Below are positions 5,808-30,693 of a stretch of 34,875 bases of DNA, in pieces. The notes below the pieces were generated by a model, which worked only from the letters and a program-made list of their open reading frames with translations, was not told where the DNA came from and searched no databases. The first letter of the stretch is position 1, and each line of letters starts with the position of its first letter. A program made the translations under genes and the position numbers. This DNA comes from Bacteroidales bacterium. Lineage in GTDB: Bacteria > Bacteroidota > Bacteroidia > Bacteroidales > VadinHA17. The DNA is taken from contig JANYIW010000129.1 of the NCBI GenBank assembly GCA_025358645.1, positions 1 through 34,875 on the forward strand, in the 5' to 3' direction.

Positions 5808-5860
5808 GAAAAAGACAAAAGATAAAAGGCAAAAGTGAGATCAAGGAGAAGGGTTAAGTC
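5808..5860 (+). repeat. Degenerate 7-bp-period purine-rich array
   Basis: Directly after the oxidoreductase stop the sequence reads as heptads: aaaagac, aaaagat, aaaaggc, aaaagtg, then drifting units ending near ggttaag. The same kind of units, including a nearly identical 'gataaaaggca(a/t)aagtga' stretch, occurs at 18.61-18.77 kb, so this is a member of a dispersed heptad-repeat class and not chance A-richness. Confidence 0.55.
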
Positions 5861-5950
5861 CTATCCGATAAATCAGTTACCCCTAAATCCCCTAAAGGGC
5901 ATAGCCGTCAACTTAAGCTTGGGGATTAATGAGAAACTGCGTAAAAAAGT

Positions 5951-6412
5951 TTCCCCTCCTTTTGAAGGAGGGGTGGTCGGGAAGATTGATTATCTTATAT
6001 ATACAGTATTTTATTTCCCGACCGGGGTGGTTGATTCATTGATACAGAAGACAACACAGTATAGGTAACTACATAGTTGACTTTTTTTGTGCTTCAGAAA
6101 AACTTGTAATTGAGCTTGATGGAAATCCGCATGGTGAATATCATAAAATAGAAAAAGATAAAAAAAGAGATCAATATTTTGAAGGCCCTGGATTCTCAAT
6201 ACTGAGGTTTGAAAACAGATTAGTATTCCAGGAACCTGAATTTGTAAAAAATGAAATAAGAAAAACCTTCAAAAGAAAAGATCCTGAATTTGAATAAACA
6301 ATCAACCACCCTGGCCGGTATCAGCATTTGTATCATAATTAAAAAGTGGTCCGGCCACCCCTCCTTCAAAAGGAGGGGAAATGTATCGGATGTATATTCA
6401 ATACCTTACATT
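5951..6412 (+). mobile_element. Palindrome-bounded repeat element with DUF559 remnant, copy 1
   Basis: The left end is a near-perfect palindrome (5953-5973; CCCCTCCTT and AAGGAGGGG around TTG) followed by TGGTCGGG. The right end (6358-6378) is its exact reverse complement preceded by CCGGCCA, so the ends form terminal inverted repeats of about 30 bp. A second, inner inverted pair follows: CCGGGGTGGTTGATTCATTG on the left (6022-6041) and CAATCAACCACCCTGGCCGG on the right (about 6299-6318). About 32 bp beyond the right palindrome are also shared with copy 2 at 30393-30693. The interior carries a broken nuclease gene (6046-6297). The exact boundaries are uncertain. No transposase is present, so it would be non-autonomous or relic. 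Confidence 0.7.
6046..6297 (+). pseudogene. DUF559 endonuclease-domain gene, 5' part deleted
   Basis: 83 codons ending in TAA at 6295-6297. The frame reads RRQHSIGNYIVDFFCASEKL, then VIELDGNPHGEYHK, then DQYFEGPGFSILRFENRLV, which is the conserved core and C-terminus of the DUF559 family (PDDEXK/Vsr-like fold). The acidic residues of VDFFC and VIELDG would be the metal-binding ones. There is no start codon: an in-frame TGA lies at 6040-6042 and the usual N-terminal about 45 residues (the 'LLWxxLK...KFRRQ' half) are missing. The missing piece is exactly what copy 2 at 30.5 kb retains. It is clearly a remnant, although the remaining codons are undamaged. Confidence 0.8.
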
Positions 6413-6468
6413 CTGTTTTGTACTAAACTCTCTCACTATTTTACTATATTTAACACCTTAGTTTGACG

Positions 6469-6497
6469 GCCCCCCATTTGGGGGGTTGGGGGGTAAA
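6469..6497 (+). repeat. C-run/G-run hairpin repeat
   Basis: A gcccccc-attt-gggggg hairpin followed by ttggggggt and an A-run. The same sequence, inverted, is at 22023-22051, and a shorter relative is at 21962-21980. It lies 31 bp before the rlmI start and forms the right arm of the outer inverted pair. Confidence 0.65.
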
Positions 6498-6527
6498 AAA
6501 AAGATTTATTAGAAAATACCTATTAGA

Positions 6528-7709
6528 GTGGAACGAATTAAAATAGTCCTGAAATCCGGCAAAGAACAATCTATTCGCCGTTTTCATCCCTGGATATTCT
6601 CCGGGGCAATTAAAAAAATGTATGGTAATCCTGTTGAAGGAGATCTGGTGGATGTTTTTGATAATAAAGATGCTTTTCTGGCAGTGGGACATTATCAACC
6701 CAGCTCAATTGCAGTAAGGATACTTTCTTTTATACAGGAAACACCCGATATAAATTTTTTCAGGGAAAAGATAAAACGTGCAATCAATTATAGGAGAGCT
6801 ATCGGCATTATAGATAATCCGGAGATTAATGTATTCAGACTCATCCATGGTGAAGGTGATGGATTGCCTGGTCTGATAGTTGATTTTTATAATGGTGTGG
6901 CAGTGATGCAGATGCATTCGATAGGTTTCTACAGGATCAGGAAGGAAATTGCAACAATCCTGTCCGAAGTTCTGGATAATCGTATTATCGCTGTTTATGA
7001 TAAAAGTGAAGGTACTATTCCTCACATGTCGGGAGTAACAGCAACTAATGAGTTCCTGTTTGGAAATTCAGGCCCGGTTATTGTCACAGAAAACGGCTAT
7101 AAATTTAAAATTGACTGGACGACAGGCCAGAAAACCGGATTCTTCATTGATCAGAGAGAGAACAGGAAACTGCTTGAAAAATATACAGAAGGGAGAAATG
7201 TATTAAACATGTTCGGTTATACCGGAGGCTTTTCTGTATATGCGATGAAAAACGCAGCAGTTGTTCATACAGTTGACAGTTCGTTCCCGGCTATTGAACT
7301 GGCAAATGAAAATATTAAGCTCAATTGGGGAGAGGATAAAAGACATGAATCATTTCAGGTCGATGCATTTGATTATATGAATCATATAAAAGATCAGTAT
7401 GACCTGATAATACTCGATCCGCCTGCATTTGCAAAGCATAATAATGTTCTGGCAAATGCTTTACAGGGATATAAGAGGCTGAATATAAAGGCAATAGAAC
7501 AAATTAAACCAGGTGGAATTATTTTTACATTCTCCTGCTCACAGGTTGTCACAAAAGAGAATTTCAGGAAATCGGTCTTTGTTGCAGCAGCCAATACCGG
7601 CCGAAGCGTAAGAATATTACATCAGTTGAGCCAGCCCTCTGACCATCCTGTAAATATTTATCATCCCGAAAGCGAATATCTGAAAGGTCTGGTTATTTAT
7701 GTTGAATAA
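6528..7709 (+). CDS. rlmI: RlmI-like 23S rRNA (cytosine-5)-methyltransferase
   Basis: 393 residues, the normal length for the RlmI/YwbD family that methylates C5 of a 23S rRNA cytosine (C1962 in E. coli) using SAM. It starts at GTG 6528; MERIKIVLKSGKEQSIRRFH then PWIFSGAI is the expected N-terminal PUA-like RNA-binding domain (about 1-80), and no ATG upstream fits. The central domain contains the family's DGLPGLIVDFY. The Rossmann methyltransferase domain follows, with the SAM motif VLNMFGYTGGFSVYA (near 225), the catalytic-loop motif LIILDPPAFAKH (near 294) and FTFSCSQ near 340. The stop lies 7 bp before the preferred tex start, indicating a two-gene operon. The upstream DNA is repeat-rich, so its promoter may lie within a repeat. 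Confidence 0.88.
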   Translation: MERIKIVLKSGKEQSIRRFHPWIFSGAIKKMYGNPVEGDLVDVFDNKDAFLAVGHYQPSSIAVRILSFIQETPDINFFREKIKRAINYRRAIGIIDNPEINVFRLIHGEGDGLPGLIVDFYNGVAVMQMHSIGFYRIRKEIATILSEVLDNRIIAVYDKSEGTIPHMSGVTATNEFLFGNSGPVIVTENGYKFKIDWTTGQKTGFFIDQRENRKLLEKYTEGRNVLNMFGYTGGFSVYAMKNAAVVHTVDSSFPAIELANENIKLNWGEDKRHESFQVDAFDYMNHIKDQYDLIILDPPAFAKHNNVLANALQGYKRLNIKAIEQIKPGGIIFTFSCSQVVTKENFRKSVFVAAANTGRSVRILHQLSQPSDHPVNIYHPESEYLKGLVIYVE

Positions 7710-18610: not shown

Positions 18611-18770
18611 GTAAAAGATAAAAGACAAAAGACAAGAGACAATAGTAAAGAAGCACAGAGCACAGAGCACAGAGCACAGAGCAGAGAGCACAGAGCAGAG
18701 AGCAGAGAGCACAGAGCACAGAGCACAGGGTTAAGAAATGATAAAAGGCATAAGTGAAAATAAGGCGACC
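18611..18770 (+). repeat. Heptanucleotide repeat array after mutS2
   Basis: The array begins at the first base after the mutS2 stop and keeps a 7-bp phase: about four A-rich units (aaaagat, aaaagac, aaaagac, aagagac), two transitional units, then eleven units of acagagc or agagagc (18652-18728), then drifting units (taagaaa, tgataaa, aggcata, agtgaaa). It separates two convergent genes. Seven is not a multiple of three, so the array would be read in all three frames; minus-strand frames across it give only low-complexity Leu-Cys-Ala-Ser translations and no believable protein. Confidence 0.85.
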
Positions 18771-21961: not shown

Positions 21962-22051
21962 TACCCCCCACCCCCCAAAAATTTGTTTTTACTTTTATCG
22001 TTTGTTTTTTTACTTTATCTTTTTACCCCCCAACCCCCCAAATGGGGGGCT
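21962..22051. repeat. Two C-run repeats in the spacer after the M28 gene
   Basis: 21962-21980 reads taccccccaccccccaaaaa and 22023-22051 reads taccccccaacccccc then aaat then ggggggc. The second is the exact inverse of 6469-6497. The stretch between them is T-rich with an approximate 7-bp period. Confidence 0.6.
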
Positions 22052-30392: not shown

Positions 30393-30693
30393 CTCCCCTC
30401 CTTTTGAAGGAGGGGTGGTCGGGATGATTGAATATCTTATATATACAATATTTTATTTCCCGTCCCGATTGCTATCGGGAGGGGTGGTTGATTCATTGTT
30501 GAGTTATGGAACATTTTAAAATCAAAAAAACTTAATGCTAGAAAATTCAGAAGACAACACAGTACAGGTAATTACATGGCAATCAACCACCCTGGCCGGT
30601 ATCAGCATTTGTATCATAATTTAAAAGTGGTCCGGCCACCCCTCCTTCAAAAGGAGGGGAAATGTATCAGACATATATTCAATACTTTACATT
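30393..30693 (+). mobile_element. Palindrome-bounded repeat element with DUF559 remnant, copy 2
   Basis: Same ends as copy 1: left palindrome 30395-30415, right palindrome 30639-30659 in reverse complement, the inner CAATCAACCACCCTGGCCGG pair member (from about 30580), and a shared right tail to 30693. The element is about 300 bp against 460 for copy 1. It differs by an extra TCCCGAT-TGCT-ATCGGGA hairpin (30463-30480) in the left arm and by keeping the opposite part of the nuclease gene. It fills the 349-bp space between lepB and the convergent rplT, ending 4 bp before the rplT stop; its hairpins may serve as a terminator for both. Confidence 0.7.
30504..30578 (+). pseudogene. DUF559 gene fragment, 3' part deleted
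   Basis: About 25 codons with no start codon: LWNILKSKKLNARKFRRQHS then TGNY. This is the conserved 'LLWxxLKxxxLxxxKFRRQxxxGxY' segment of DUF559 nucleases. The reading then runs into the inner inverted repeat, so the VDFFC...IELDG core is missing. The RRQHS(I/T)GNY portion overlaps the beginning of the fragment in copy 1 (6046 onward), showing that both come from one parent gene. Confidence 0.75.

Follow-up and report, generated by a model that had tools for sequence, protein, structure and literature searches.

Both repeats under study in the window (the whole 34,875-nt stretch of DNA analysed here) derive by internal deletion from one DUF559 nuclease element. They belong to what is very probably a family of mobile, palindrome-bounded nuclease units, and a DUF559 lineage found in frame within essential proteins is, as far as we could find, undescribed. 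The initial annotation had suggested a mobile nuclease element; intact palindrome-bounded relatives and empty sites bear this out, and the protein-nested lineage had not been foreseen.

The two copies lie where they had been reported and have palindromes, tags and tails in common (Table 1). The palindrome CCCCTCCTTTTGAAGGAGGGG lies on the left of each of them and returns as its reverse complement on the right, and two direct repeats, of 80 nt (91%) and 119 nt (94%), are common to both copies. The arms of copy 1 (5950-5980 and 6351-6381) form inverted repeats with 30 of 31 bases matching. The ends are compound: an outer hairpin is followed by further sequence and then by the tag GGGGTGGTT, and in copy 2 this further sequence contains a second hairpin (CCCGATTGCTATCGGG). 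Copy 1 retains the DUF559 core ascribed to it, as a fragment matching PF04480 at 6040-6267 with 77.2 bits (cut-off 20.6); it comprises the C-terminal two thirds of the domain and is devoid of the parent's start. The piece in copy 2 scores 18.6 bits, under the same cut-off. The loss from copy 1, previously put at about 49 bp, has to be revised, as about 150 bp of the gene front are missing relative to the longer left half at the end of contig C64 (landmark distances). For copy 2 the earlier figure of about 225 bp agrees with the core lost relative to copy 1 (about 222 bp) and leaves out a further 104 bp or so of the front, relative to C64. The copies had also been thought to rebuild most of one gene between them; they do hold pieces of one DUF559 gene, the start of which is present in neither.

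Table 1. Features of the two DUF559-derived repeats and of related palindromes in the window.
Feature	Coordinates	Strand	Basis
Copy 1, whole repeated unit, common to other genome copies	~5896..6470		blastn among copies, motif positions; exceeds palindromes
Copy 1 unit, outer motifs GCCGTCAA / TTGACGGC	5904-5911 / 6463-6470		motif positions
Copy 1, left palindrome, then TGGTCGGG	5953..5973	+	motif positions, inverted-repeat search
Copy 1, inner left tag CCGACCGGGGTGGTTGATT, inverted partner 6300-6318	6018..6036	+	repeat search
Copy 1, DUF559 remnant RRQHSIGNYIVDFFC...IELDG..., parent start codon missing	6046..6297	+	PF04480 match, translation
Copy 1, inner right tag AATCAACCACCCTGGCCGG	6300..6318	-	repeat search
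Copy 1, right palindrome	6358..6378	-	motif positions
Separate solo palindrome GCCCCCCATTTGGGGGGTTGGGGGGTAAAAA, adjoining copy 1	6469..6499	-	31/31 inverted match with 22020-22050
Second solo palindrome, GCCCCCCATTTGGGGGGTTGGGGGGTAAAAA type	22020..22050	+	inverted-repeat search
Copy 2, more deleted derivative, in lepB-rplT gap (gene names from the initial annotation)	30393..30693	+	congener G083 without copy, 41 bp there
Copy 2, left palindrome	30395..30415	+	motif positions
Copy 2, second hairpin CCCGATTGCTATCGGG and tag AGGGGTGGTTGATT	30464..30493	+	landmarks
Copy 2, DUF559 remnant LWNILKSKKLNARKFRRQHSTGNY	30501..30578	+	18.6 bits, below cut-off
Copy 2, right palindrome	30639..30659	-	motif positions

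A genome-wide listing located the same DNA about 15 times in the genome (4.06 Mb, 414 contigs), window copies included, which excludes chance as the origin of the window repeats. Contig C64 ends in a left half that includes a start codon (ATGAAAAACC...), and contig C142 opens with the right part of an element; the two were treated as separate copies, although they seem to stem from one full copy interrupted by the contig ends. Judged by landmarks, the internal deletions differ between copies, and one deletion junction, joining TTCATTGAT to (T/A)CAGAAGAC, is common to C215a, C89a and C27 on three contigs, with a near variant in C89b. Therefore, the deletion derivative itself has multiplied or was spread by recombination, in agreement with the MITE-like decay proposed before. 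The three intact DUF559 genes of this genome (C299, C386 and C78) are flanked by palindromes as well, each by its own sequence (by eye). The motifs GCCGTCAA and TTGACGGC(TATGCCC) flank several elements (L186, L190 and, at 5904 and 6463, copy 1), occur also beside the C386 element and probably represent a further, outer repeat family. Elsewhere in the window, positions 18638-18749 form an imperfect tandem repeat of AGCACAG-type units with a spacing of mostly 14.

Four congeners contain full-length DUF559 copies with closely similar compound ends (L190 in G078, L186 in G081, L191 in G079 and L211 in G076), which substantiates the postulated parent, a nuclease gene between palindromes. Two copies of G078, L209 (DUF559 Pfam match 1e-34) and L223, have the ends AAGTTTCCCCTCC...GGAGGGGAAACTT and are alike over about 590-620 bp; on the right side their homology stops at GGAGGGGAAACTT, and on the left the alignment extends over about 35 weakly alike bases past AAGTTTCCCCTCC. 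The elements L225, L216 and L229 (G071, G083) start with (TCC)ACCCCCCAACCCCCC and end at most about 15 bases from GGGGGGTTGGGGGGT; their ends are of the type of the solo palindrome at 6469-6499. Terminal inverted repeats bound the unit, in that alignments of copies from different loci break off at the palindromes or close to them.

The initial annotation had named a chance association of DUF559 genes with such repeats as the finding that would speak against it, and the observed association is far above that in the controls. We scored the best inverted repeat between the 350-bp flanks on either side of each DUF559 domain, with a threshold of at least 14. The class sample of 60 genomes, 36 of them with DUF559, gave 104 rows, of which 94 were used (10 short or own-copy fragments omitted); four domains lay too close to a contig end, leaving 90 assessable. 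Of these, 46 reached the threshold vs 13 of 1271 positions obtained by shifting within these loci, and the 44 domains scoring below 14 count against the explanation favoured here. At the genus level (29 loci out of 59 matches, 27 assessable), the threshold was reached by 18 of 27 DUF559 domains vs 4 of 83 other small ORFs in the pooled loci, and in a sample of named contigs (the best 80 of 571) by 33 of 79 domains vs 8 of 1689 controls. Each element has ends matched to one another: across 84 free elements the mean left-right score was 17.2 within a locus, compared to 9.1 between genomes and 10.4 between different loci of one genome.

Empty sites in orthologous loci, the second line of evidence suggested earlier, were found for copy 2 and likewise for two intact elements. 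The place of the C299 element measures 613 bp in the source genome (G000) vs 7 bp in G083, and that of the C78 element 622 bp vs 24 bp, in loci that are 95-96% alike. The former is element-free also in G072, G071 and G077, the only others of 16 genomes with both flanks, and the latter in G075 and G067, the two other genomes aligned. In G083 (91-95% alike), the lepB-rplT gap occupied by copy 2 is element-free and has 41 bp, which include a terminator-like hairpin; copy 2 is missing as well from G072 and G067, the other genomes whose gap was read. No clean target-site duplication was seen at these sites: filled and empty versions are set apart as well by short stretches that have been replaced or have diverged, and because the flanking letters differ, none is readable. 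For copy 1, the oxidoreductase-rlmI interval was ruled out as an empty site, since rlmI is preceded by a different gene in four congeners (G083, G072, G071 and G075). Across the corresponding window region 5810-6530, the four congeners have, by eye, a 3'-5' exonuclease before rlmI, and a rhomboid-like gene comes after the oxidoreductase in G083. The copy 1 locus may represent a rearrangement at the repeat or a misjoin in the fragmented assembly. Matches to 2 phage records (32-39% identity) and to 36 records of a plasmid collection (all below 60% identity, the 15 listed from outside Bacteroidota) are all distant, and so no vehicle was found.

If DUF559 were merely a passenger, Y1 (HUH) transposases or another enzyme would mobilise the REP-like palindromes in trans, a scenario that we consider unlikely. 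We counted the pattern ACCCCN{2,5}CCCCTN{2,20}AGGGG in 60 genomes. The repeat count correlates with the number of DUF559 genes (Spearman 0.66, uncorrected for shared ancestry) and, with rho 0.39, with the number of Y1_Tnp matches; the reversed control pattern gave no trend (-0.14; 59 genomes, own genome left out). With the own genome again left out, the median was 3 repeats in the 35 DUF559-bearing genomes vs 0 in the other 24. In favour of the passenger scenario, and against our own explanation, are the largest repeat loads, which occur in genomes with both DUF559 and Y1 transposases, and G043, with 30 palindrome matches, 7 Y1_Tnp matches and no DUF559 at 1e-5. Against it, the partial correlation for Y1 falls to 0.24 (p 0.07) with DUF559 held fixed, that for DUF559 being 0.61 with Y1 held fixed; RAYT is thus the less likely main driver, although Y1 transposases may help. 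The own genome, which has repeats and DUF559, gave zero Y1_Tnp matches at 1e-5 in its fragmented assembly. A mere passenger would also leave unexplained the 20 invariant columns among 18 aligned nested domains, including E, D, ExDG and H positions, which we take to be catalytic. The genome G025 has 89 repeat matches, for the most part near-identical among the matches listed. Between the same repeat ends it has a single DUF559 gene, interrupted by an internal stop, and there are also units of about 150 bp whose ends are inverted.

The enzyme itself has a predicted PD-(D/E)XK-like fold, nearest to the homing endonuclease I-Bth0305I, which an excerpt of PMC3943268 describes as representing the EDxHD family. 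A profile of 25 family members searched against PDB (hmmsearch) retrieved 3hrl (4.7e-32) and then 3r3p, a 'Mobile intron protein' (8e-5). Foldseek with the AlphaFold model of L209 (pLDDT 84) likewise returned 3hrl followed by 3r3p, the catalytic domain of I-Bth0305I (E 9.5e-5, TM 0.75 normalised to target length); Vsr ranked 18th (E 0.08). Of five free proteins translated, four are 120-127 aa long and extend little beyond the domain; the tail of L227 is longer and is translated from the palindrome. This prediction weighs against the RAYT/TnpA-like working put forward in the initial annotation. Spelled out, DUF559 would cut the ends as folded single-stranded hairpins, as TnpA/RAYT does with REP, and the element would move by peel-and-paste. 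The hairpin ends with a foot tag, stems kept while their sequence varies, and solo and inverted-pair copies recalling the arrangement of REP and BIME would suit such a mode of action. We nevertheless regard it as distinctly improbable, as Pfam detects in the family enzyme only DUF559 and one restriction-endonuclease family, and inspection of the window palindromes revealed no GTAG or CGTC foot.

In addition to free elements, we found DUF559 nested in long host frames, namely LeuS (at two sites), MetH, RecG, RecJ, PP2C-type phosphatases, HsdR and type IIG-like enzymes, and, in the named sample (best 80 of 571), IleS, MetG and ValS. Host names are a reading of motifs, confirmed by Pfam for two LeuS, one MetH and one RecG. 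That sample was seeded with nested domains, so its share of nested cases (75 of 80 by a length rule) is biased and not a frequency; in it, the frame of L293 is cut by the end of its contig, and in L308 hardly any sequence follows the domain. Nested cassettes lack a stop of their own and read on into the host frame, the palindromes being translated as linkers such as SPSPLGEGRGEG. No Hint splicing domain was found by Pfam in four nested hosts (two LeuS, MetH and RecG), where the matches were to host domains, to DUF559 and to nuclease families akin to it. A tree was built from 119 domains (4 of 123 fell below 85 aa and were omitted); one 21-row cluster in it (SH-aLRT 89) takes in 20 of the 26 nested domains and has hosts mixed within it; the nested/free label changes 7 times vs about 24 times when shuffled. 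A recent copy is seen in G007, where two paralogous PP2C-type genes have cassettes that are about 95% alike, and 100% over the first 100 bp compared; the hosts are about 80% alike over a conserved motif past the right palindrome and unalignable thereafter, one locus beginning at a contig end. Among type IIG-like enzymes, L063 (G052) has a cassette where L067 (G026) has the short palindrome-type peptide KTPPLERGMGGV, and L067 contains its own cassette elsewhere in the protein.

LeuS served as a test case. The gene of G051 has a 463-bp stretch where that of G009 has 34 bp, and the G051-type cassette is missing from all six readable congeners (eight searched, two not covering the site); five of the six have a short loop there, and the loop of G063 is longer. 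A 250-aa query matched in 117 of 119 class genomes; nine of the 117 have a gap of about 410-700 bp at one loop, and none of the nine has a LeuS match other than the two halves. We read 50 LeuS loci (the 30 best matches and 20 chosen, seven of them for a split), 44 of which were parsable: 35 have loops of at most 20 aa, six of 30-41 aa and three full cassettes. The loop of L370 (G142) consists of left and right palindrome with no nuclease and constitutes the coding counterpart of the window deletion copies. In L367 (G120:C8:95300-96300), an unrelated in-frame palindromic repeat, read HPELVSGS...MLKQVQHD, occupies the same loop, which is therefore at least permissive and perhaps merely so. Among the loci scanned, 32 distinct LeuS genes carry a cassette at the loop, including those of the isolates Cellulophaga baltica DSM 24729, Gillisia mitskevichiae DSM 19839 and Leeuwenhoekiella marinoflava DSM 3653. 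Hairpin stems of at least 7 were present at 23 of 31 cassette ends on the left and at 26 of 31 on the right, with varied sequences, compared to 5 of 276 LeuS windows and 1 of 62 nuclease-part windows. In G054, one of the nine (L096/L254, G054:C1:374400-375900), the LeuS frame is broken at the right palindrome of the cassette, which could be a sequencing error in the G run. An AlphaFold model of a LeuS fusion was too poor for the host fold (mean pLDDT 62, pTM 0.37), with means of about 64-86 for DUF559 blocks. In L148 (G009) and L149 (G063), about 150 bp of the leuS 3' end match again downstream, at about 0.6 kb and 2 kb, respectively.

Nested DUF559 domains might instead be old domesticated parts of LeuS, MetH and other hosts, vertically inherited and immobile. 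This would fit G054 and G013, two genomes of one genus in which a single alignment of 84% identity spans host and cassette, and it would fit the result for co-conversion near the LeuS junction: third-position identity was 0.387 for inserted pairs, 0.358 for mixed and 0.346 for uninserted ones (from 32 genes with and 38 without the insertion, leaving out 7 whose loops were of intermediate length). This excess is slight, and we dropped the claim of recurrent homing with co-conversion at the loop. Still, domestication appears highly improbable in view of the six congeners without the G051 cassette, the single cluster spread across many host genes, the four changes that the LeuS label needs on the tree and the closely similar cassettes in the two G007 paralogues. 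A LeuS cassette is also present, at site 1, in a MAG contig labelled Candidatus Paceibacterota (L271), through either a binning error or cross-phylum transfer. That the hairpins are ordinary bidirectional terminators or insulators, that DUF559 is a host repair or defence gene and that repeats and gene do not form a single mobile unit is hardly credible given the matched ends, the homology limits at or near the palindromes, the empty sites, the multiplied deletion derivative and the palindromes inside coding sequence, even though the empty site of copy 2 in G083 has its terminator-like hairpin and a Caulobacter DUF559 protein has been proposed as a Vsr-like repair enzyme (excerpt of PMC12907096).

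We favour, with reasonable though far from full confidence, a homing-like nuclease cassette with palindromic ends that would drive its own movement. Such an element would consist of one DUF559 gene of about 120-150 codons between inverted GC-rich hairpins with a C-run/G-run tag. The starting point is what we observed: the ends are matched element by element, copies occur at several places per genome, and empty sites exist for some of them. From homology, DUF559 would be a site-specific, EDxHD/Vsr-like endonuclease of the homing type. It may cut or nick its target, probably palindrome-like or permissive DNA, and repair would copy the element in; the hairpin ends would act as recognition sites and portable homology, and the nuclease may cut these ends itself. 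Deletion derivatives with both ends would be copied in trans and accumulate as MITE- or REP-like repeats. The stopless lineage sits in frame in protein loops, its hairpins read as Pro/Gly/Ser-rich linkers; it may be an intein-like homing cassette in which no splicing domain is detectable and which is tolerated because it leaves the reading frame intact.

Compared with known systems, the DUF559 element resembles a cross of homing endonuclease and REP/RAYT, missing a defining feature of each. Its catalytic domain is homologous in sequence and fold to that of EDxHD enzymes, and both occur sporadically in conserved genes; however, no intron or intein was found around DUF559, and DUF559 elements have paired palindromic ends. 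I-Bth0305I has a long DNA-binding extension (excerpt of PMC3943268), whereas the free DUF559 proteins of about 125 aa have none. Similarities to REP/RAYT and BIMEs include tagged hairpin repeats, a gene between inverted repeats, many solo or paired copies and a load that tracks the gene, but the protein there is Y1 (HUH), in place of the PD-(D/E)XK-like DUF559. The REP foot is GTAG/CGTC (excerpt of PMC3733652), and the window tag is, by inspection, a C-run/G-run. The same excerpt mentions Rickettsia palindromic elements (RPE) and in-frame REPs, palindromes inserted in protein genes, which by description resemble the LeuS remnant L370; in the elements studied here, the palindrome pair also bears a nuclease. 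MITEs are comparable as short, recurrent internal-deletion derivatives with both ends kept, but their counterpart here derives from a DUF559 element instead of an IS with known transposase, and no clean target-site duplication was seen at the sites compared. Inteins place a nuclease in frame within conserved sites of housekeeping proteins, as nested DUF559 cassettes do, and differ by their splicing domain, not found in the four nested hosts scanned.

In the open-access literature that we searched, we found neither palindromic ends described for DUF559 nor any account of DUF559 cassettes in frame within other proteins. These hairpin-bounded, EDxHD-like cassettes might constitute a new class of mobile element, a proposal for which we see the case as evenly poised. 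One lineage would parasitise essential enzymes as an in-frame, unspliced domain, spread by cutting cassette-free loops or solo palindromes, be kept because imprecise loss breaks an essential gene, and seed REP-like palindromes and in-frame linker peptides. The elements offer a candidate enzyme and origin for the abundant GC-rich palindromic repeats of Bacteroidota, as RAYTs do for REPs, and they suggest a function to test for DUF559. As the nuclease domain resides in the sole LeuS found in several genomes, an essential enzyme there contains a second, apparently mobile catalytic domain. This makes homing without splicing directly testable and points to sites in aminoacyl-tRNA synthetases, MetH and RecG that are naturally permissive for insertions.
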